From assembly GCA_027485235.1 (NCBI GenBank), contig JAIXRJ010000030.1:62001-126000 (forward strand): a stretch of DNA of 64,000 nucleotides, in the 5' to 3' direction. The notes under the pieces are model-generated. The model ran no database searches. It worked only from the letters and a program-made list of their open reading frames with translations, and was not told where the DNA came from. Origin of the DNA: Comamonadaceae bacterium (lineage in GTDB: Bacteria > Pseudomonadota > Gammaproteobacteria > Burkholderiales > Burkholderiaceae_C). Positions 30,432 to 40,583 of the stretch are shown piece after piece (positions within the stretch are counted from its first letter, which is position 1; each line of letters opens with the position of its first letter). The translations under genes were made by a program, and so were the position numbers.

Positions 30432-30920
30432 ATGACGACCTCCGATGTTCTGACCCATTTTGACGCCCAAGGGCAAGCCCACATGGTGGATGTGGGTGCG
30501 AAAGCGAGCACCCAGCGCACCGCTGTGGCCGCTGGGCGCATCAGCATGCTGCCCGCGACCCTGGCCTTGATTGAATCGGGTAGCGCCAAAAAAGGCGATG
30601 TGCTGGGCATTGCCCGCACTGCCGGCATCATGGGCGCCAAGAAAACCAGCGAACTGATCCCCTTGTGTCACCCGATTGGCTTGACGCATGTGGCGGTGGA
30701 GTTTGAAGTGTTGACCTCTGAATCGACGGTGCTCTGCAAAGCCACTGCCGAGACCGTGGGCCAGACCGGTGTAGAAATGGAAGCCCTGACCGCCGTGAAC
30801 GTCGCCTTGCTCACCATTTACGACATGTGCAAAGCCGTGGACCGGGGCATGACCATCACCGATGTCAAGTTGCTGGAAAAGCATGGGGGTAAAAGCGGAA
30901 CATACATGGCCGAGAAGTAG
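30432..30920 (+). CDS. moaC: cyclic pyranopterin monophosphate synthase
   Basis: A 162-residue enzyme of molybdenum cofactor synthesis that turns 3',8-cyclo-7,8-dihydro-GTP into cPMP. It has the full family pattern: [73 protein letters not shown], and [20 protein letters not shown] followed by GGKSG. No other mo-cofactor gene is adjacent. Its last 50 bases include the 28-base stretch repeated at 38469, which may mark the insertion of the downstream island. The gene itself is intact. Confidence 0.96.
30871..30898 (+). repeat. 28-bp direct repeat, copy A (inside moaC 3' end)
   Basis: The bases encoding [10 protein letters not shown] near the end of moaC are repeated exactly at 38469-38496 in the same orientation. 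Together the copies bracket the AT-rich glycan region. Confidence 0.85.
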
Positions 30921-31745: not shown

Positions 31746-34493
31746 TCACTTCACCTGCTCCTTGGCTGCAGTATCGGCCGCCCGCATTCTGGCCTCAGCA
31801 GCTAGTCGCCACTGCCGAACAGGCTCGCCGAAACGCTGCTCCAAAGTGACTATCATGGGCAACCAGCGGCGAGACAGATGTGCCTTGACGCTTGCCAGAG
31901 CTGGCCAAGACAAGCCTTGTGGGTCAACGGCATTGAGTCGTTTCGCTGCCATGGCGCGCACCTTCTCTGCAGGCATAGGGGGTATTCGCAGGAAGTCACA
32001 AATCTGGTTGACCCAATGTAAAGGTTCGCACTCGAGGTCTTCATGAAATAGGACTAGCAACTGGTCTTCAGGCAGTGCTCGTTCCCAGATGTCCAAGGTT
32101 CGGAGGTAGTTAGTACGTAGCTCGCAGTATGTGCTCTCGCAGACTTTTAGCAGTTGTGCCACATCTGGCTTTTTTACTCCAGAGCGGTGCAGTAAGTGCA
32201 ATGCACTAGAGATGGTTCTGGTCACTGGATCGCGCAAGATGAAGATCACCTTAACATGAGGCATCACCTTGATGATTTCGGCAACCTTGTTTTCATCGAG
32301 CGTGGCATATGCGGGGGTGAAGTCGCATACAAGTTGCCCTGCGGGTGCCGCCTGCAAGCTGGCTGAATAGTTTTCCCACATGCCTGAGACGGGGAATGCG
32401 TGTCGCAATGCCATACGCACAGCTTGATCACGCTGGGGCGTTCCATCAGCGTAAGCATGTTTACTCAGAAGGGCCATCGCCTGGGTTTGTCTAAATTTTC
32501 CAATGACAGGGTCCGCGCCGTCCCAATCGAATTGGTGGAACTCCTTGATCCCCCATCGCCAGACGTTGGGGTGCGTTTGCAGGGCTGCGTACAGCCAGGT
32601 GGTTCCCGAGCGTTGTGCACCGATACACAGCACATCCGGCAGTCTTGGGGAGACTGACATCTGGTTGAGGCTGGGTACTGCATCGGCAAAGCGCAGCATG
32701 GTGTGGCTTGCGGATATAGGTTTGATTTCTCCACCCTGCTGGGATAAGCCGAACGCACACAGTGGTTCAGGGGCATTGAGCAAAATCCAGGTCCGATCCG
32801 GGCTGGTGCAGTTCAGTGGTAACGATTGACGCAGCGTCAGAACTGATTGGCTGCTGTAATGAAAATTCAGCGTTTTGTTAGTGACTGGCAGGTCCAGGCC
32901 GATCAGATAGAGGCCTGGCGCTGTCAGTGGATCGTTTAAATTGGGTAATTGTGTTTGCTCACCGACCAGTGAAGATGGGGTCTTGATCCACAAGATAACT
33001 TGCCGTGCGTTGGAAAAAAAATCAGGCAGCGGAGCTTCCTCGGGCCATGCCTTCACAAATTCGTATGCTCGACAATGGTCAAGTTGGGGTGAATTTGGAG
33101 CATCCCTCGGCGAAATGCGAAGGTGCCATATGGCTAGCTCCTGCGGGCAAACTGTGATGGGTTCTGTTTGGGCTAGGCGTTTGTTGAAATGCCAGTCACC
33201 AAGTGCGGGAAGCTTCTCATGAAATTCGCCTATATTGTGCAACATCCTACGACGAAACAGTAATGAAATCGGAGGGAACAGGTTGCGTGTCTTTAGATGT
33301 GCTGGCGTAATCTGTTCGAGTTTGGGTCCGAACGATGTGCGTTTTATGGTTTTGTAGCGTCCGTTGATCCATGCTTCCCTTACCAGCAAGCTGTGTGAAA
33401 CGCCAGCCGTGGCATTTTGAGTGTCGAGCCACCCTGTCATTACCTCTAGATATTCAGGTCGCCATGAGTCGTCGTCGTCATGGATGGCGATGAAGTCGCT
33501 GTCCTGTGCGGCTATGCCAGCATTGCTTGCGGCCTCCATACCCAATTGGCTTGGCAGGTGCATGACGTTCAAACGGCCTTGAAACAAGTGCAAGTAAGGT
33601 TCGATTTCGGATTCAACAAGGCGAGTAGGTCCACCGTCATTGACGATTTGCAGGAACCAATTACGGTAAGTTTGGGCCAGTACGCTGCGCAATGCACGGG
33701 GCAACAAACCCAGACGCCAGCGTGTGCGCATGACGATCAGAACTTTGCCACGATCAGTAGGAACTCCAGTTGTTGCGGCTGTAGAAAAAATCTGGCTGTT
33801 CAGCGAGGATCGCAAGGGTGTTTCATCTTGGCGGTGATGCCACAGATCCTCCTCGATCAGTCCGGCACAGTTCGCTGCCATGGCCTCGGGGTCGAGCACA
33901 CCGCAAAATGCCCCCATGCTAGCCAGCTGGGTCTGAGGTGAGCGCATGATGTCACGGTGTTCGAAGCGTGCATAAACTAGACCTATGCTGTCGCGCTCGA
34001 TGGCCGATTGGTGTTCGAACCATATTTGGCAGGCCAGTTCATAGGGCATGCCCTGTCGTGCATGCAAGGAAGCCGCTACTTCATCACAGTCTCTGTAGAC
34101 ATGCAGTACCCGAAGCTCAACCTGGAGGTTGTCTGCTACGGTGGACCATAGTGGCAACAACAGGCTTGAGCGCGGGTCCTTGACCAGCCAGTGGCCATGA
34201 TGTGACATTTCTTCGCGTGCAATCCCTGCAAACAGTTTGTGGACAGATTGTGCTTCAGGCCAATCGATCCACTTCGATGGCAAGGGGCCAGGCGAGCTGT
34301 GCCATTCCCGTCCCAGATCAGTCAGCAAATTTTCCTGTGCTTGCCAAACTATGCTGTGTTCCCAGTGCCCATTGGGATTGGCCGGGTCTGGCTTAATGTC
34401 GACTTGCTTGCCAAGATTCAGGCCCATGGCATGCATTTCACGGGCGACCATCGATGTGCCCGATCTGTGCATGCCAACTACCAGAATGATCAT
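31746..34493 (-). CDS. sulfotransferase - glycosyltransferase family 2 - sulfotransferase fusion
   Basis: A 915-residue protein with three enzymatic modules. Residues 1-225 form a P-loop sulfotransferase domain (GMHRSGTSM at 7-15 for the PAPS 5'-phosphosulfate; HVYRDCDEVAASLH for the 3'-phosphate). Residues 249-480 form a GT2 GT-A domain (LIVMRTRWRLGLLPRALRSV, LAQTYRNW, DFIAIHDDDDSW with the metal-binding acidic cluster at 339-342). Residues 485-615 are a linker of unclear fold. Residues 619-890 form a second sulfotransferase (IGAQRSGTTWLYAALQTHPN, FILRDPVTRTISSALH). GAGG precedes the ATG. It may add and sulfate a sugar of a surface glycan (inference). GC content is lower than in the flanking core genes. 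Confidence 0.85.
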   Translation of the reverse strand: MIILVVGMHRSGTSMVAREMHAMGLNLGKQVDIKPDPANPNGHWEHSIVWQAQENLLTDLGREWHSSPGPLPSKWIDWPEAQSVHKLFAGIAREEMSHHGHWLVKDPRSSLLLPLWSTVADNLQVELRVLHVYRDCDEVAASLHARQGMPYELACQIWFEHQSAIERDSIGLVYARFEHRDIMRSPQTQLASMGAFCGVLDPEAMAANCAGLIEEDLWHHRQDETPLRSSLNSQIFSTAATTGVPTDRGKVLIVMRTRWRLGLLPRALRSVLAQTYRNWFLQIVNDGGPTRLVESEIEPYLHLFQGRLNVMHLPSQLGMEAASNAGIAAQDSDFIAIHDDDDSWRPEYLEVMTGWLDTQNATAGVSHSLLVREAWINGRYKTIKRTSFGPKLEQITPAHLKTRNLFPPISLLFRRRMLHNIGEFHEKLPALGDWHFNKRLAQTEPITVCPQELAIWHLRISPRDAPNSPQLDHCRAYEFVKAWPEEAPLPDFFSNARQVILWIKTPSSLVGEQTQLPNLNDPLTAPGLYLIGLDLPVTNKTLNFHYSSQSVLTLRQSLPLNCTSPDRTWILLNAPEPLCAFGLSQQGGEIKPISASHTMLRFADAVPSLNQMSVSPRLPDVLCIGAQRSGTTWLYAALQTHPNVWRWGIKEFHQFDWDGADPVIGKFRQTQAMALLSKHAYADGTPQRDQAVRMALRHAFPVSGMWENYSASLQAAPAGQLVCDFTPAYATLDENKVAEIIKVMPHVKVIFILRDPVTRTISSALHLLHRSGVKKPDVAQLLKVCESTYCELRTNYLRTLDIWERALPEDQLLVLFHEDLECEPLHWVNQICDFLRIPPMPAEKVRAMAAKRLNAVDPQGLSWPALASVKAHLSRRWLPMIVTLEQRFGEPVRQWRLAAEARMRAADTAAKEQVK

Positions 34494-34939: not shown

Positions 34940-36739
34940 TTAAATATACAGAATTCTTATTGAATTATCACCATAATTTGCCACGGCCAAAGATTTTCCT
35001 GAAGGTGAAACATCTATACCGTGAGGGAAGAAAACGTCATCACTGACCGTTCCAACAAATTGAATTTCCAAGGCGTCTGTATTGCACAAAAAATTCAATA
35101 CTTGATCGTTGGCCTGATCCACGCAAATCAGATTAAAACAACTTCCTTCGCCGTTTGGTGAAACAATGCAGCAATCTTCGATGGAAACATATTTTTCATT
35201 GGCATATTCGAGTTCTGCAACAGGTAAATCTTCAAAAGTACCTTCTTGTTGGTCGAATTTATGAAGACTTATGAATGAAGTAGAGCTTTTTTCAGTATTT
35301 TCTTGCTTTACCACGACTCCGGAAATAAGGACAATGTAATCACCGTTGGGTGTTATGAGCACTGACTTTGGCCTCAGAGGAGACAATCTGCTGGTTTGTT
35401 GATAAGTTGTTTTGCCCGTGAGGACGTCAATGATTTCTACAAAACCGATCTTGCCTATTTCACTTGCAGCAAGGAATCGAGAGTCAGGCGAAAAGCAAAG
35501 CGAGTGATAGGTTCCTGTTCTAATATCCTTGGAATATTTAATCTCAAATCCATGGAGGCACTCAATGGAATGCACCGATATTCCTTTGTTTGCCGACATG
35601 GTATGGCTTATGGCCATCAGTTTTTTATTGGGTGATACCTTCACAATTTCTGGAAATGTGATTCCTTTTGTGGCTTCGTACAGAAGTGCAACAGAACTGT
35701 CAGGGGATTGATCGGAAATTTTATAAACCCGAAGGTGCTGGCCATACAGGTTGACAGTGACAAATGTCGTGTCAGAGAGCCATGCCACGCCTGAGCATGT
35801 TGCAAAACGCTTTCTATCGCCCACAGTGAACGCATCGTATTGAGTGTCTGATTTTGAGTGGGACCTTGAATCATCAATATGAACCTTGAGTGTATTCTTA
35901 CTGCTGATGGTGTGGTTCACTTCTTGGTGGGTAACATGCTTTTTATCGACTTTATCTTTCACGTTTTCAATTGCACTTGTCACATTAGACGGGTTTATCC
36001 ACCAAGATTGCCATTGCGTATTGCTGTATTGCAAGAGCAAATCACACATAAATGATGTTTGCGTACGATCGTCCTTTTTTACCGATCGCCATAAACTATC
36101 ATCCTGATTTTCCTCTAAAGGAATCAACCATTTTTTATCTCGTTTCAATGAAATTAAAGAAAGGTTGGATTTTAATGCCTCTGCAGCCAAGTATAAATCT
36201 GCCATGTTGTGATGTTTCCAGTGCCGCGGATCGGGTTGAAAAACGCCCGAACAAAAAGCTGCAGTACCCGATCCGAGGAGATGAACCACCGTATCTTCGG
36301 GCAGTGCATTGGCGAAATGCAAACTGATCTGATCTTTGCGATAACTTGTATGCGGGGGGCGAAAAATTACACCATGAAAGCCGACGATAGATCGATGGCC
36401 ATAAGTGCTCAGTGCAAACTTGATTCGGCTCACATAGTCGGGTGGGTAAAATATGTCATCGTCAAAAAATACGATGATTGCATCTGAAGAAAAATGTACA
36501 GGTGCAAGGAATCGATTGCAGGTATGTAAATTATCATCGTCAGTCGGTAAAAATGGACGGCACTTGTGATGGTTGATCAATTCAACAGGAATTTTCTTAT
36601 ATCCATCAAGGTAGATATAAAGAATGTCAACTTGTGCAAGTATCCCGGGTAGCATTTTCACAAAGGTGTGAATACGGGTTGGCATTGTTGCAATAGAGCC
36701 AACCACAGGCAGTTTGTCTGTTGATAAATTGCTGTTCAT
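34940..36739 (-). CDS. glycosyltransferase fused to a beta-propeller
   Basis: A 599-residue protein. Residues 1-250 look like a GT-A glycosyltransferase: VVGSIATMPTRIHTFVKMLP, then IIVFFDDDIFYPPDYV with an acidic metal site at 93-95, and HHNMADLYLAAEA later. After a polar linker (about 265-305), residues 310-599 look like a WD40/YVTN-lactonase beta-propeller. Its repeated blade patterns are CSGVAWLSDTTFVTVN, ITFPEIVKVSPNKKLMAISH, YHSLCFSPDSRFLAASE, PKSVLITPNGDYIVLISG and PHGIDVSPSGKSLAVANYGD. The gene is AT-rich, pointing to transfer. The acceptor and donor are unknown; the propeller may bind a glycan or partner protein. Confidence 0.75.
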   Translation of the reverse strand: MNSNLSTDKLPVVGSIATMPTRIHTFVKMLPGILAQVDILYIYLDGYKKIPVELINHHKCRPFLPTDDDNLHTCNRFLAPVHFSSDAIIVFFDDDIFYPPDYVSRIKFALSTYGHRSIVGFHGVIFRPPHTSYRKDQISLHFANALPEDTVVHLLGSGTAAFCSGVFQPDPRHWKHHNMADLYLAAEALKSNLSLISLKRDKKWLIPLEENQDDSLWRSVKKDDRTQTSFMCDLLLQYSNTQWQSWWINPSNVTSAIENVKDKVDKKHVTHQEVNHTISSKNTLKVHIDDSRSHSKSDTQYDAFTVGDRKRFATCSGVAWLSDTTFVTVNLYGQHLRVYKISDQSPDSSVALLYEATKGITFPEIVKVSPNKKLMAISHTMSANKGISVHSIECLHGFEIKYSKDIRTGTYHSLCFSPDSRFLAASEIGKIGFVEIIDVLTGKTTYQQTSRLSPLRPKSVLITPNGDYIVLISGVVVKQENTEKSSTSFISLHKFDQQEGTFEDLPVAELEYANEKYVSIEDCCIVSPNGEGSCFNLICVDQANDQVLNFLCNTDALEIQFVGTVSDDVFFPHGIDVSPSGKSLAVANYGDNSIRILYI

Positions 36740-36812: not shown

Positions 36813-38108
36813 TTACAAGCGGAACACGGTAAAGCCTTGTTGCGCTGTCGCTTGGCGGTTGTACAGGCTTTTAACGTCGGTGAGGACAGGTTGGTTGCCT
36901 TGGCAGAATTGGCGCAGTTCGGCGGCTGTGGTGGTCCGGTATTCGCGGTGGCCGACGGCGACGACGAGCGCGTCCACTGGGTGTTGAGGGCTGATCTGGC
37001 CGAGGGTGAGCCCGTATTTGTCATGCACTTCTTGTGCGTCGGCCCAAGGGTCGGCGACGACGACACTGGCGCCCCAAGCTTCAAATTCACGAACCATGTC
37101 TACGACTTTGCTGTTGCGTATGTCGGGGCAGTTCTCTTTGAAGGTAATTCCGAGCACGCCGATGCGGCAGCGCGGAACGTCCATGCCGTTTTGGAGCATG
37201 AGTTTGATGGTGTTGCGCGCAACGTATCGGGCCATGTTTTCGTTGATACGGCGACCTGCCAAGATGATTTGGGGCTTGTAACCCACTTCTTGGGCTTTGT
37301 GGGTGAGGTAGTACGGGTCCACGCCAATGCAGTGACCGCCGACCATGCCCGGTCTGAAGGGCATGAAGTTCCATTTACTGCCTGCAGCCTCGAGCACTTC
37401 AAGCGTATCGATCTGAAGCCGTTCGAAGATGAGAGAGAGTTCGTTGACAAAGGCGATGTTGAGGTCGCGCTGACTGTTTTCGATCACTTTGGCGGCTTCA
37501 GCCACTTTGATACTGCCTGCTTTGTAGGTGCCTGCGGTGATGATTTGCCCATAGAGTTGGTCGACCGCGTCAGCCACTTCAGGTGTGCTGCCGCTGGTGA
37601 TTTTTTTGATGGTGGTCAGGGTGTTGATTTTGTCGCCGGGGTTGATCCGCTCAGGGCTGTACCCGCAAAAGAAATCCTGGTTGAACTTGAAGCCGCTGAA
37701 CTTTTCCAGCACGGGCACGCACACTTCTTCTGTGGCACCAGGGTAGACGGTGGATTCGTAAATGACCACATCGCCCACCTTGAGGACTTTGCCCAGGGTT
37801 TCACTGGCTTTGATCAAGGACGTCATGTCAGGGTGGTTGGCCTGATCTACCGGGGTGGGTACGGTGACAATGAAAATTTGTGCGAGTTGCAGGTCTTGTC
37901 GGTCTGCGCTGTAGCGCAGGTGTGTTGCGGCCCTCAGCGCTTCGGGGCTGCATTCGAGTGTGTGGTCCTTGTCCGATTGCAGTTCGGCAATGCGCGCTGG
38001 GTTGATGTCAAAGCCGATGGTGTCACGGTATTTGCCAAATTCAACGGCCAAAGGCAAGCCGACATAACCCAAGCCAATGATGGCAATGGTTTTGTTTTGC
38101 AGATTCAT
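36813..38108 (-). CDS. nucleotide-sugar (UDP-HexNAc) 6-dehydrogenase, TviB/WbpO-like
   Basis: A 431-residue NAD-dependent enzyme that oxidises C6 of a UDP-sugar to a uronic acid. It has the Rossmann start IAIIGLGYVGLPLAVEFGK, TVPTPVD, YESTVYPGATEE, YSPERINPGDK, and the catalytic cysteine in GGHCIGVDPYYL. The pattern is of the UDP-GlcNAc/GalNAc dehydrogenase (TviB/WbpO) type rather than UDP-glucose dehydrogenase. The ATG at 38108 (MNLQNKTIAIIG) was chosen because the upstream frame adds an unrelated stretch. It would supply an amino-uronic acid for the glycan made in this region. Confidence 0.92.
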   Translation of the reverse strand: MNLQNKTIAIIGLGYVGLPLAVEFGKYRDTIGFDINPARIAELQSDKDHTLECSPEALRAATHLRYSADRQDLQLAQIFIVTVPTPVDQANHPDMTSLIKASETLGKVLKVGDVVIYESTVYPGATEEVCVPVLEKFSGFKFNQDFFCGYSPERINPGDKINTLTTIKKITSGSTPEVADAVDQLYGQIITAGTYKAGSIKVAEAAKVIENSQRDLNIAFVNELSLIFERLQIDTLEVLEAAGSKWNFMPFRPGMVGGHCIGVDPYYLTHKAQEVGYKPQIILAGRRINENMARYVARNTIKLMLQNGMDVPRCRIGVLGITFKENCPDIRNSKVVDMVREFEAWGASVVVADPWADAQEVHDKYGLTLGQISPQHPVDALVVAVGHREYRTTTAAELRQFCQGNQPVLTDVKSLYNRQATAQQGFTVFRL

Positions 38109-38263
38109 GGGTGTGCGAATGAGAGCCGGCGCTTGAATGTGCCGCAGGAGATGTGCAGCGTTAGACCTTGTTGTGAACAAAACCTCTCAAGCTTTACACC
38201 TTGAACTGGGCCGCGGCTTGAAAGTCAATTTTGAGAGCCAGCCAGCCAAGCACAGCAGAAGCA

Positions 38264-38278: not shown

Positions 38279-38468
38279 AGGTGTCCTTGATTTACCCGCT
38301 CTCGGGAAAAATGGGGTGGGTTTGACAGTGAAATGCACCACCCTGCGTTTGAAGGGATGAGGGTGGAAACTTGCGGGGTGTGCAAGAAGAGTTCTCGATC
38401 ATGCAACAGGAAGTGGGGATTGTACGCACAGGTGGTCGGCACCAGGGAAGCCCCGAGCGACGTGATGA

Positions 38469-38496
38469 TGCTGGAAAAGCATGGGGGTAAAAGCGG
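38469..38496 (+). repeat. 28-bp direct repeat, copy B (moaC 3'-end remnant)
   Basis: This is an exact copy of 30871-30898, in the same orientation and in the same reading frame as in moaC. The frame ends at a TGA at 38516-38518. The flanking codons differ from moaC but keep the pattern [19 protein letters not shown], so this is the tail of a moaC-type gene and not chance similarity. Confidence 0.85.
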
Positions 38497-38587: not shown

Positions 38588-40045
38588 TCAATTCGAGGGA
38601 TCCATGTCCAAGCCAAAAGCCACTTTCAGCCATCTGCGGTGCGTTGCGGCCGTTTTTTCATCCCCAAGCCTTTGCGCCGCATCGATCACCTTGCGGATCA
38701 CTTGGGGTTCGGGCGAGTAGTGCAGCAGCACCAAGCCGTTGGCGAGCATTGGGGCTGCATTTTCATCGGTGACTGGGGTGCTGGTGAATTCGGCAAACAG
38801 GGCGGTGGTGCGAAACAGCATGCTGCTTTTGGCCACGCCCATGGCCTCTCCTGACCAGAAGGCGGTGCGTTGATGTTCTGGAATGAAGATTTGCCGAACG
38901 CGCGAATAGTCCACCGCCGTGAAAGTGGCCACAGCCAGGAGGGTGGTGCCCAGCAGGGGTAAAACGCGCTGTTGGCCTGCCCAAGCAGGGGTTTGTGGCT
39001 TCAGCAAGAGCAGGATGCACAGCAAAACCGCCATTTGAAAGGGCCCGTACCACAGCGGAAACTCCAGCAGGCTGTGCAGGCCAATGACGGACAGAACGGT
39101 CCAGGCCAATTGATGCTGCGTCGCATGGGAACGCCAAGGTCGCATGCGCCCAATGGCCCAGATCACGCCCAGTAGGAGGACTGTGGCCGCGGGGACACCC
39201 AAGGCAAAGGCGAGGTGCAAAGGCCCGTTGTGGGCGTTGCCCAGAATTTCGCAAAAGCGTTCGCCCGAATAATTGGCGCTGTAATGCGCGTATTTGAGTT
39301 CGTTCCAGCCCCAACCCCACCACGGCTTTTGCGCGATCAATTCGATGACATTTCGCCACAACACTTTGCGGCTGCCACAGCCATCGTCATGGGCCAGACG
39401 CGCCAAGGCGCTGACCGCGTCCGCGCCGGAGTTCATGGACAGCGATTGCGGCAAAGCCCAAAGCGCAAGCATGTAAACGCCCAAAGCCCAAATGGCCAAA
39501 CGCCGAGACAGCGAGCGCGCGCTCTGGCGGCTCAGGGATGCCCACCCGATGACCCATGCGCTCACCAGCAGCATTTGCAAGAGCCCTGTGCGCGAATTGG
39601 TGGCCGCGTTGCCTGTGGCGATGAGGGCCAGCATCCACAAAGCATGGGGACGTGACAAACCGTGCTGCGCCCACCACAGCACGGCCACGATGCCCATGGC
39701 CGTGAGGGTGGCCAACTGGTTGCGTTGTCGCAAGTTGGCTTGGGCCTCGCCCAAACCATTGAGGGCATGCACCCAGGGGCTCAAGGTTTCGGCCCAGCCG
39801 AAATACTGCAAAACGCCCATCGCGCTGCTGGCCAAGGCGGCAATGGCCCAAGATTGGGCAATGTCTTGGGCCCGCAGGGCTGAGCGAGAGACCATGAGGA
39901 GGCCCACGCATGACCAGGTGATCAGCAGTGGCACCACATTGGGCAAGGGGCTTGTGGCCCAGGGCTGTACCCAGGGCAGGACCAACAAGAAGCCCAGAAG
40001 GGGTGCCGCCCAAGGTGAGGACGGGCCGTCAGCCACGCGGTTCAC
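38588..40045 (-). CDS. PglL/TfpO-type O-oligosaccharyltransferase (Wzy_C family)
   Basis: A 485-residue membrane protein with about 10-12 helices. Landmarks of the PglL/O-antigen ligase superfamily are TNSRTGLLQMLLV, WWGWGWNELKYAHY, then a large loop with ILGNAHNGPLHLAFALGVPA (catalytic histidine region) and HSLLEFPLWYGPF. The C terminus is a soluble domain. It lies immediately downstream of a type IV pilin on the same strand (55-base gap), as TfpO/PilO ligases do, so pilin glycosylation is the likely job. An O-antigen ligase role cannot be excluded. Confidence 0.85.
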   Translation of the reverse strand: MNRVADGPSSPWAAPLLGFLLVLPWVQPWATSPLPNVVPLLITWSCVGLLMVSRSALRAQDIAQSWAIAALASSAMGVLQYFGWAETLSPWVHALNGLGEAQANLRQRNQLATLTAMGIVAVLWWAQHGLSRPHALWMLALIATGNAATNSRTGLLQMLLVSAWVIGWASLSRQSARSLSRRLAIWALGVYMLALWALPQSLSMNSGADAVSALARLAHDDGCGSRKVLWRNVIELIAQKPWWGWGWNELKYAHYSANYSGERFCEILGNAHNGPLHLAFALGVPAATVLLLGVIWAIGRMRPWRSHATQHQLAWTVLSVIGLHSLLEFPLWYGPFQMAVLLCILLLLKPQTPAWAGQQRVLPLLGTTLLAVATFTAVDYSRVRQIFIPEHQRTAFWSGEAMGVAKSSMLFRTTALFAEFTSTPVTDENAAPMLANGLVLLHYSPEPQVIRKVIDAAQRLGDEKTAATHRRWLKVAFGLDMDPSN

Positions 40046-40100: not shown

Positions 40101-40583
40101 TCACGAAGCTTTGCAAGAAGCCGGCAAGTACTTCACCGGCAGACCATTGCTGGTGGCCGGCCCACAGCGCCAAGCGGCGATGGTTTTGCCACCATCGGTG
40201 TTGCCATTGATGGGTGTGTTGCCGGTTTGCAGGGGTGTCAAGGCCATGGCGTTAGCCGAGCTGCTGGTCGTGCCACGCAGGGCTTCATGCTGGCCCACCA
40301 CGGTGATCACGCCATTGGCATCGACCGCGAGGCTGGCGACGTATTTGCTGGTCTGGCTGTCGCACGCTTTGGGCAGTGTGGTCGAAACGTTGGCATCGGA
40401 TGCGGAGCTGACAGCCTCGTTGACCGCTGTTTTGCAACCGTTGGCGGCCAGCAGCATTTCCGAGACTTTGGCGCGGATGGTGTAGTCCTGGTAAGCCGGC
40501 AAGGCCAGCGCGCCCAATATGCCGATGACCGCGATCACGATCATCAGCTCAATCAATGTCAAACCTTGTTGCCTTTTTTGCAT
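40101..40583 (-). CDS. pilA: type IV pilin
   Basis: A 160-residue prepilin. A short basic leader (MQKRQQG) precedes the PilD cleavage site G^[19 protein letters not shown], with Glu at mature position 5. A C-terminal disulfide loop is bounded by WRCGP and ASCKAS. The protein ends in serine, like P. aeruginosa group I pilins in which the terminal serine is glycosylated by the adjacent TfpO; here a PglL-like gene is likewise adjacent. The function is adhesion, twitching or DNA uptake as the major pilus subunit. Confidence 0.93.

Follow-up and report, generated by a model that had tools for sequence, protein, structure and literature searches.

The gene at 31746..34493 of the window (the whole 64,000-nt stretch of DNA analyzed here) encodes a 915-residue chain in which a GT2 glycosyltransferase domain is flanked by two unlike domains, an N-terminal putative sulfotransferase domain (STn) and a C-terminal sulfotransferase domain (STc). 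On balance, we favor a soluble cytosolic three-part enzyme that makes one doubly sulfated glycan unit and is encoded on a horizontally acquired island. This reading builds on features seen by computation: the three domains and their motifs, the island itself, genes for PAPS synthesis in the host genome, and homologues of the domains that occur as separate neighbors in other genomes. The parts of the gene are:

31746..34493, minus strand: sulfotransferase-GT2-sulfotransferase gene, 915 aa (open reading frame, Pfam, motif positions)
33804..34493, minus strand: putative sulfotransferase domain STn, residues 1-230 (family alignment, PDB profile matches, motifs)
34449-34475, minus strand: STn P-loop GMHRSGTSM (motif)
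34065-34097, minus strand: STn 3'-phosphate motif with R134 and S142 (motif)
33054..33749, minus strand: GT2 domain, residues 249-480 (Pfam)
33468-33482, minus strand: HDDDD of GT2 (motif; LGDWHF at residue 431)
32652..33053, minus strand: interdomain stretch, residues 481-614, 134 residues (no Pfam match)
31824..32651, minus strand: STc domain, residues 615-890 (Pfam, profile matches, motifs)
32595-32621, minus strand: STc P-loop GAQRSGTTW (motif)
32205-32237, minus strand: STc R754/S762 motif (motif)

Searched as a whole, the protein matches the Pfam families Sulfotransfer_3 (E 1.5e-23, in two stretches), Glycos_transf_2 (E 7e-16 at residues 260-362) and Sulfotransfer_1 (E 7.1e-16 at residues 619-843). 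The motifs GMHRSGTSM, HDDDD and GAQRSGTTW lie at residues 7, 338 and 625, where an earlier note on this DNA had placed them. That note had also proposed that a GT2 domain stands between two sulfotransferase domains of the PAPS type. The GT2 and C-terminal parts of this proposal are clear in Pfam, as the isolated GT2 segment scores 62.4 bits against a cut-off of 23.3 and carries the acidic metal site, and isolated STc passes the cut-offs of both PF13469 (72.1 bits, cut-off 27) and PF00685 (56.4 bits, cut-off 22), whereas STn taken alone falls below the cut-off. Residues 481-614 match no Pfam family and, by phmmer, nothing in the fetched loci. Membrane-like windows above 1.6 number 0 of 897 in the protein versus 17 in PglL, and on this basis the protein is most likely cytosolic and soluble. 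When a profile of the STc family was compared with the PDB, it matched the sulfotransferase 3rnl (6.1e-49), heparan sulfate 3-O-sulfotransferase 3A1 (1.5e-38) and NDST (3.8e-31); because the family is broad, these matches leave the substrate of STc unfixed.

The gene and two others lie between two copies of a direct repeat, one of them in the 3' end of moaC:

30432..30920, plus strand: moaC, the inferred integration target (Pfam MoaC)
30860..30898, plus strand: 39-nt direct repeat in the 3' end of moaC, island boundary (repeat comparison)
34940..36739, minus strand: 599-aa protein, KfiA/heparosan-synthase-B-like glycosyltransferase in residues 3-231 (profile matches)
36813..38180, minus strand: nucleotide-sugar dehydrogenase, TviB-like (Pfam, NCBIfam)
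38458..38496, plus strand: second copy of the repeat, 90% identical, other island boundary (repeat comparison)
38588..40045, minus strand: PglL/O-antigen-ligase-like oligosaccharyltransferase, outside the island (Pfam Wzy_C_2, Wzy_C, PglL_A)
40101..40583, minus strand: type IV pilin, outside the island (Pfam Pilin, N_methyl)

The island thus delimited holds the 915-residue protein gene, the 599-residue protein gene and the dehydrogenase gene, and its GC of 0.486 compares with 0.616 for the window outside it; no integrase matching those of congeners was found in the 64,000-nt window. Pilin and pglL stand together in 20 of 20 fetched congener loci. Beyond pglL, moaC or its 3' end is present in 14 of the 20, and the moaC 3' sequence is doubled in seven of these 14. 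One congener locus (L319) carries a phage-type integrase gene in the slot beside moaC, L325 and L331 hold similar frames, and congeners carry different inserts, unrelated to these, in the same slot. Within the genus, the moaC 3' end acts as a hotspot for integration. The DNA of the island was acquired recently and is not necessarily expressed, and promoter-like sites within it are fewer than in shuffled sequence (4 versus 8.1); both points were counted against a trifunctional enzyme.

It is conceivable, though doubtful, that the product is the O-glycan of the adjoining type IV pilin, attached by PglL. The pilin and pglL genes directly adjoin the island and the pair is constant in the fetched genus loci, yet the island is bounded by moaC repeats, its slot is filled by unrelated inserts in congeners, and a match to the 915-residue protein is present in 0 of 20 congener slots, so the proximity may be accidental. 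Because the slot is a hotspot with varied inserts, closeness to pilin and PglL is no proof of a pilin glycan, and the idea of a dedicated pilin-glycosylation gene is weakened.

From its sequence, we read STn as a sulfotransferase domain like STc, although isolated STn scores 20.5 bits with PF13469, under the cut-off of 27 (E 6.4e-4). A relative (L053) reaches 36.2 bits with Sulfotransfer_3, over the cut-off of 27. Its family of GMHRSGTS sulfotransferase-like proteins was aligned from 47 sequences that share 22-31% identity with the query. Of the invariant residues in this alignment STn retains 10 of 10, including H9-R10-S11, S14, E45, K105, R134 and S142, and of the near-invariant ones 14 of 15, the exception being P136, which is C. 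The profile of this alignment finds sulfotransferases in 13 of 13 PDB sequences below E 0.001, the best being the aryl sulfotransferase 1cjm (7.2e-6), and these matches span mainly the 3'-phosphate half, not the P-loop; this limited span and the low score of isolated STn were counted against a trifunctional enzyme. The STn and STc profiles are related to each other (hhalign 93.7%, E 1.9e-7), and both domains have, by sequence, the 5' P-loop and the 3' R-x7-S that we take to be motifs of PAPS-dependent sulfotransferases.

An arrangement in which only STc transfers sulfate and STn is a degenerate or substrate-holding domain appears unlikely to us. The score of isolated STn below the Pfam cut-off and the altered residue at 136 would fit it, but STn retains every invariant residue of its family and is found alone or with GT2 in many genomes. 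That STn is some other P-loop enzyme, such as a kinase, seems very improbable: a weak Pfam match of the isolated domain to AAA_18 (E 0.0089) points that way, but none of the 45 PDB sequences listed for the family profile (E up to 5) is named a kinase, the 13 strongest are sulfotransferases, and the loop GMHRSGTS is without the Lys that kinase P-loops carry.

The STn-GT2-STc order was found only here. Searches with the 915-residue protein in 100, 399, 398 and 369 genomes (overlapping draws, the last three being limited to two scored candidates per genome) gave no full-length relative, and no record among 72,556 plasmids and 50,697 phages had 80% coverage of it; the lack of a relative that would show selection on the entire chain was also counted against a trifunctional enzyme. 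Viral contigs gave nothing with the same query, which speaks against a viral origin of the whole protein; STn relatives are present on 70 viral contigs, and one phage record has an STn-like stretch. No report of an STn-GT2-STc fusion was found among open-licence papers. A fusion of separate genes by an assembly or sequencing error, for which the lack of a second full-length example in the searched genomes would speak, is scarcely credible: the frame runs from a single ATG at 34493, with GAGGA placed 6 nt upstream, to a stop codon ending at 31746 with no internal stop in 915 codons, GC3 is 0.53-0.60 across four long segments with no break suggestive of joined genes, and the gene lies well within a 181-kb contig, which also speaks against the frameshift-joined genes against which the earlier note had cautioned.

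Domain architectures were compared among 264 distinct sulfotransferase-bearing frames, with duplicates strictly removed, from 401 sequences (400 loci and the window); the genome_contigs scan contributed the best 80 of 578 matches. Loci were fetched by similarity to the 915-residue protein or to STn, so that the sample is biased, and frames cut at locus ends hide fusions. STn stands alone in 161 frames, as STn-GT in 47 and as STn-GT-GT in 16, STc is found in 36, and GT-STn, STc-GT, GT-STc-GTx4 and STn-GT-STc (the query) occur once each. Fusion of STn to a glycosyltransferase is counted in 64 of the 264 frames, 63 with STn N-terminal to one or two GT2 domains and one as GT-STn. The STn-GT2 fusion is a known, frequent kind, which counters the notion of a wholly unique kind of fusion; the second sulfotransferase is the new part, and only the sandwich is unique in the sampled frames. 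Two other frames stand out by their make-up, a 2219-residue frame with the order GT-STc-GT-GT-GT-GT (L394) and an STc-GT fusion gene followed directly by an STn gene with GT1-type matches (L106:610-4599).

STn and STc occur as separate frames of one locus in 20 of the fetched loci, 14 of which also have a GT2 match. The 20 comprise 12 of the best 80 genome_contigs loci, three of the 70 viral loci and five others, of which two represent one and the same place. Stella sp. ATCC 35155 (L136) has, as separate stretches within 4 kb, matches to GT2 at 44% (residues 256-464), to STn at 38% (residues 2-161) and to STc at 28% (residues 617-895), and its GT2 is the best match to the query GT2 among the fetched loci. 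Within 9.2 kb, one congener (G026) carries STn and STc as separate units together with an APS-kinase match. That the parts are fused here and are neighbors elsewhere argues for one shared pathway. The architecture, which had been presented as unfamiliar, is so in the sandwich as such, of which no second example was found; it is less foreign than supposed because STn-GT2 fusions are frequent and the three parts are adjacent in Stella.

A search of the host genome for PAPS-synthesis genes, as had been suggested, found CysC, CysD and CysN. There is one strong APS-kinase gene (cysC; E 1.8e-61, and 234.6 bits versus 163 with NCBIfam adenylyl-sulfate kinase), which adjoins nucleotidyltransferase, sugar dehydratase/epimerase and DegT aminotransferase genes in a sugar-nucleotide locus, and CysD, CysN and CysH frames are on the same contig. 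This contig is a different one from that of the fusion gene, a point counted against a trifunctional enzyme. CysH shows CC...CxxC, presumably the APS-reductase pattern; with a CysH of this type, PAPS would not be needed for assimilation. Two more sulfotransferase genes of the host (Sulfotransfer_1 and Sulfotransfer_2) stand beside a weak fucosyltransferase match at L118:7369-10026.

Across 90 genomes of the genus, APS kinase (E <= 1e-20) is present in 12 and Sulfotransfer_3 (E <= 1e-4) in seven, all of which are among the 12; the chance of this overlap is 1.1e-7 if the genomes are independent, odds that ignore relatedness and incomplete genomes. In four of the seven (G826, G048, G026 and G825) the two genes share a contig and are within 9 kb of each other; in three, the host genome included, they are on different contigs. 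Genome G049 has an intact cysC and, 55 nt on, a decayed STn with two stops that is 70% identical to the query STn over 64 residues. The row in that genome (L097:2593-5196) comprises, besides the APS kinase and the decayed STn, a frame resembling glycosyltransferases and another sulfotransferase-like gene, which at 25.9 bits falls slightly short of the cut-off. A study of Vibrio sp. KMM 8419 and its sulfated capsule regards PAPS genes together with sulfotransferases in a polysaccharide cluster as a hallmark of the synthesis of sulfated polysaccharides (PMC11641403). The link between APS kinase and sulfotransferase in the genus provides a simple marker by which further producers may be recognized from their genomes.

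The other island genes bear on the kind of sugar involved. The 599-residue protein matches residues 292-526 of heparosan synthase B (PmHS2; E 1.8e-28) and KfiA (3.4e-20), and its C-terminal part has weak WD40/beta-propeller matches. The dehydrogenase scores 374.7 bits with TIGR03026, over its cut-off, and 557.3 bits with TviB (UDP-GlcNAc dehydrogenase, NF011729), just under the cut-off of 592, versus 101 bits with the UDP-glucose-type TuaD; because it is closest to TviB, its sugar-acid product may be HexNAcA and not GlcA. We regard it as improbable that the island encodes a compact route to a sulfated glycosaminoglycan, which would be a natural equivalent, in bacteria, of heparan sulfate. On this reading the KfiA-like alpha-GlcNAc transferase would alternate with the fusion GT2, the latter adding the sugar acid that the dehydrogenase supplies, and STc (kin of 3-O/N-sulfotransferases) and STn would sulfate the growing chain. 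KfiA-like genes are rare (five of 398 genomes, the host included, and eight plasmid records, one annotated kfiA). In six of nine other loci the KfiA-like part is either fused to a GT2 match or immediately adjacent to one, the match being weak in one of the six, and none of the nine matches the STn or STc profile, so that KfiA-like genes do not generally travel with sulfotransferases. The GT2 domains that partner other KfiA-like genes are far from the query GT2 (ranks 55, 65 and 77 of 92), which is no proven partner of the heparosan type. On a Sinorhizobium meliloti plasmid, a KfiA-like domain is fused to a GT2 match in a 1143-residue frame (L407:7141-10572).

For the three-part enzyme that we favor, GT2 would extend a growing oligosaccharide, which is probably lipid-linked, by a sugar, and the two unlike sulfotransferase domains would then pass sulfate from PAPS to two positions of the GT2 product, with the fusion holding the intermediate on one protein. 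PAPS would come from CysND and CysC of the sugar-nucleotide locus, and the KfiA-like transferase and the sugar-acid-forming dehydrogenase, which arrived with the fusion on the island, would probably feed the same glycan. We infer the domain activities, the acceptor, the order of steps and the number of sulfates, as well as the action of both sulfotransferases on the GT2 product at two positions. Sugar addition and sulfation are normally carried out by separate enzymes. A natural chain doing both, if that is what the gene encodes, would serve directly for making defined sulfated glycans and would put the coupling of sulfation to chain building to a direct test, and the gene hints at a doubly sulfated sugar on the host cell. 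According to the 2021 synechan paper, sulfated polysaccharide in bacteria had been reported from cyanobacteria only (PMC8205485); a marine Vibrio with sulfated polysaccharide has been described since 2021 (PMC11641403).

Among related systems, STn-GT2 fusions and separate GMHRSGTS proteins share the STn family with the protein described here, but the STn-GT2 fusions of our sample have no further sulfotransferase of a different kind at their opposite end. By profile, STc belongs to the broad family of the heparan sulfate 3-O-sulfotransferases and NDST, which differ in being animal Golgi enzymes without a GT2 fusion. The heparosan synthases PmHS2 and KfiA resemble the island in that the 599-residue protein matches their KfiA-like half and a GT2 is encoded beside it; they differ in that the query GT2 is weakly like the GT2 half of PmHS2 (E 0.0018) and in that their product is unsulfated, heparosan being, to our knowledge, unsulfated in the bacteria with PmHS2 or KfiA. 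In Stella the same parts are unfused and STc is on the other strand. The wps-1 cluster of Actinoplanes missouriensis has separate genes, and its sulfation is proposed only, as here, but it likewise pairs sulfotransferases from different families within a single glycan cluster (PMC13390465). The xss (synechan) cluster of Synechocystis PCC 6803 differs in its separate genes, Wzx/Wzy cluster and known product; it is alike in that two sulfotransferases of distinct subfamilies and glycosyltransferases serve one sulfated exopolysaccharide (PMC8205485).
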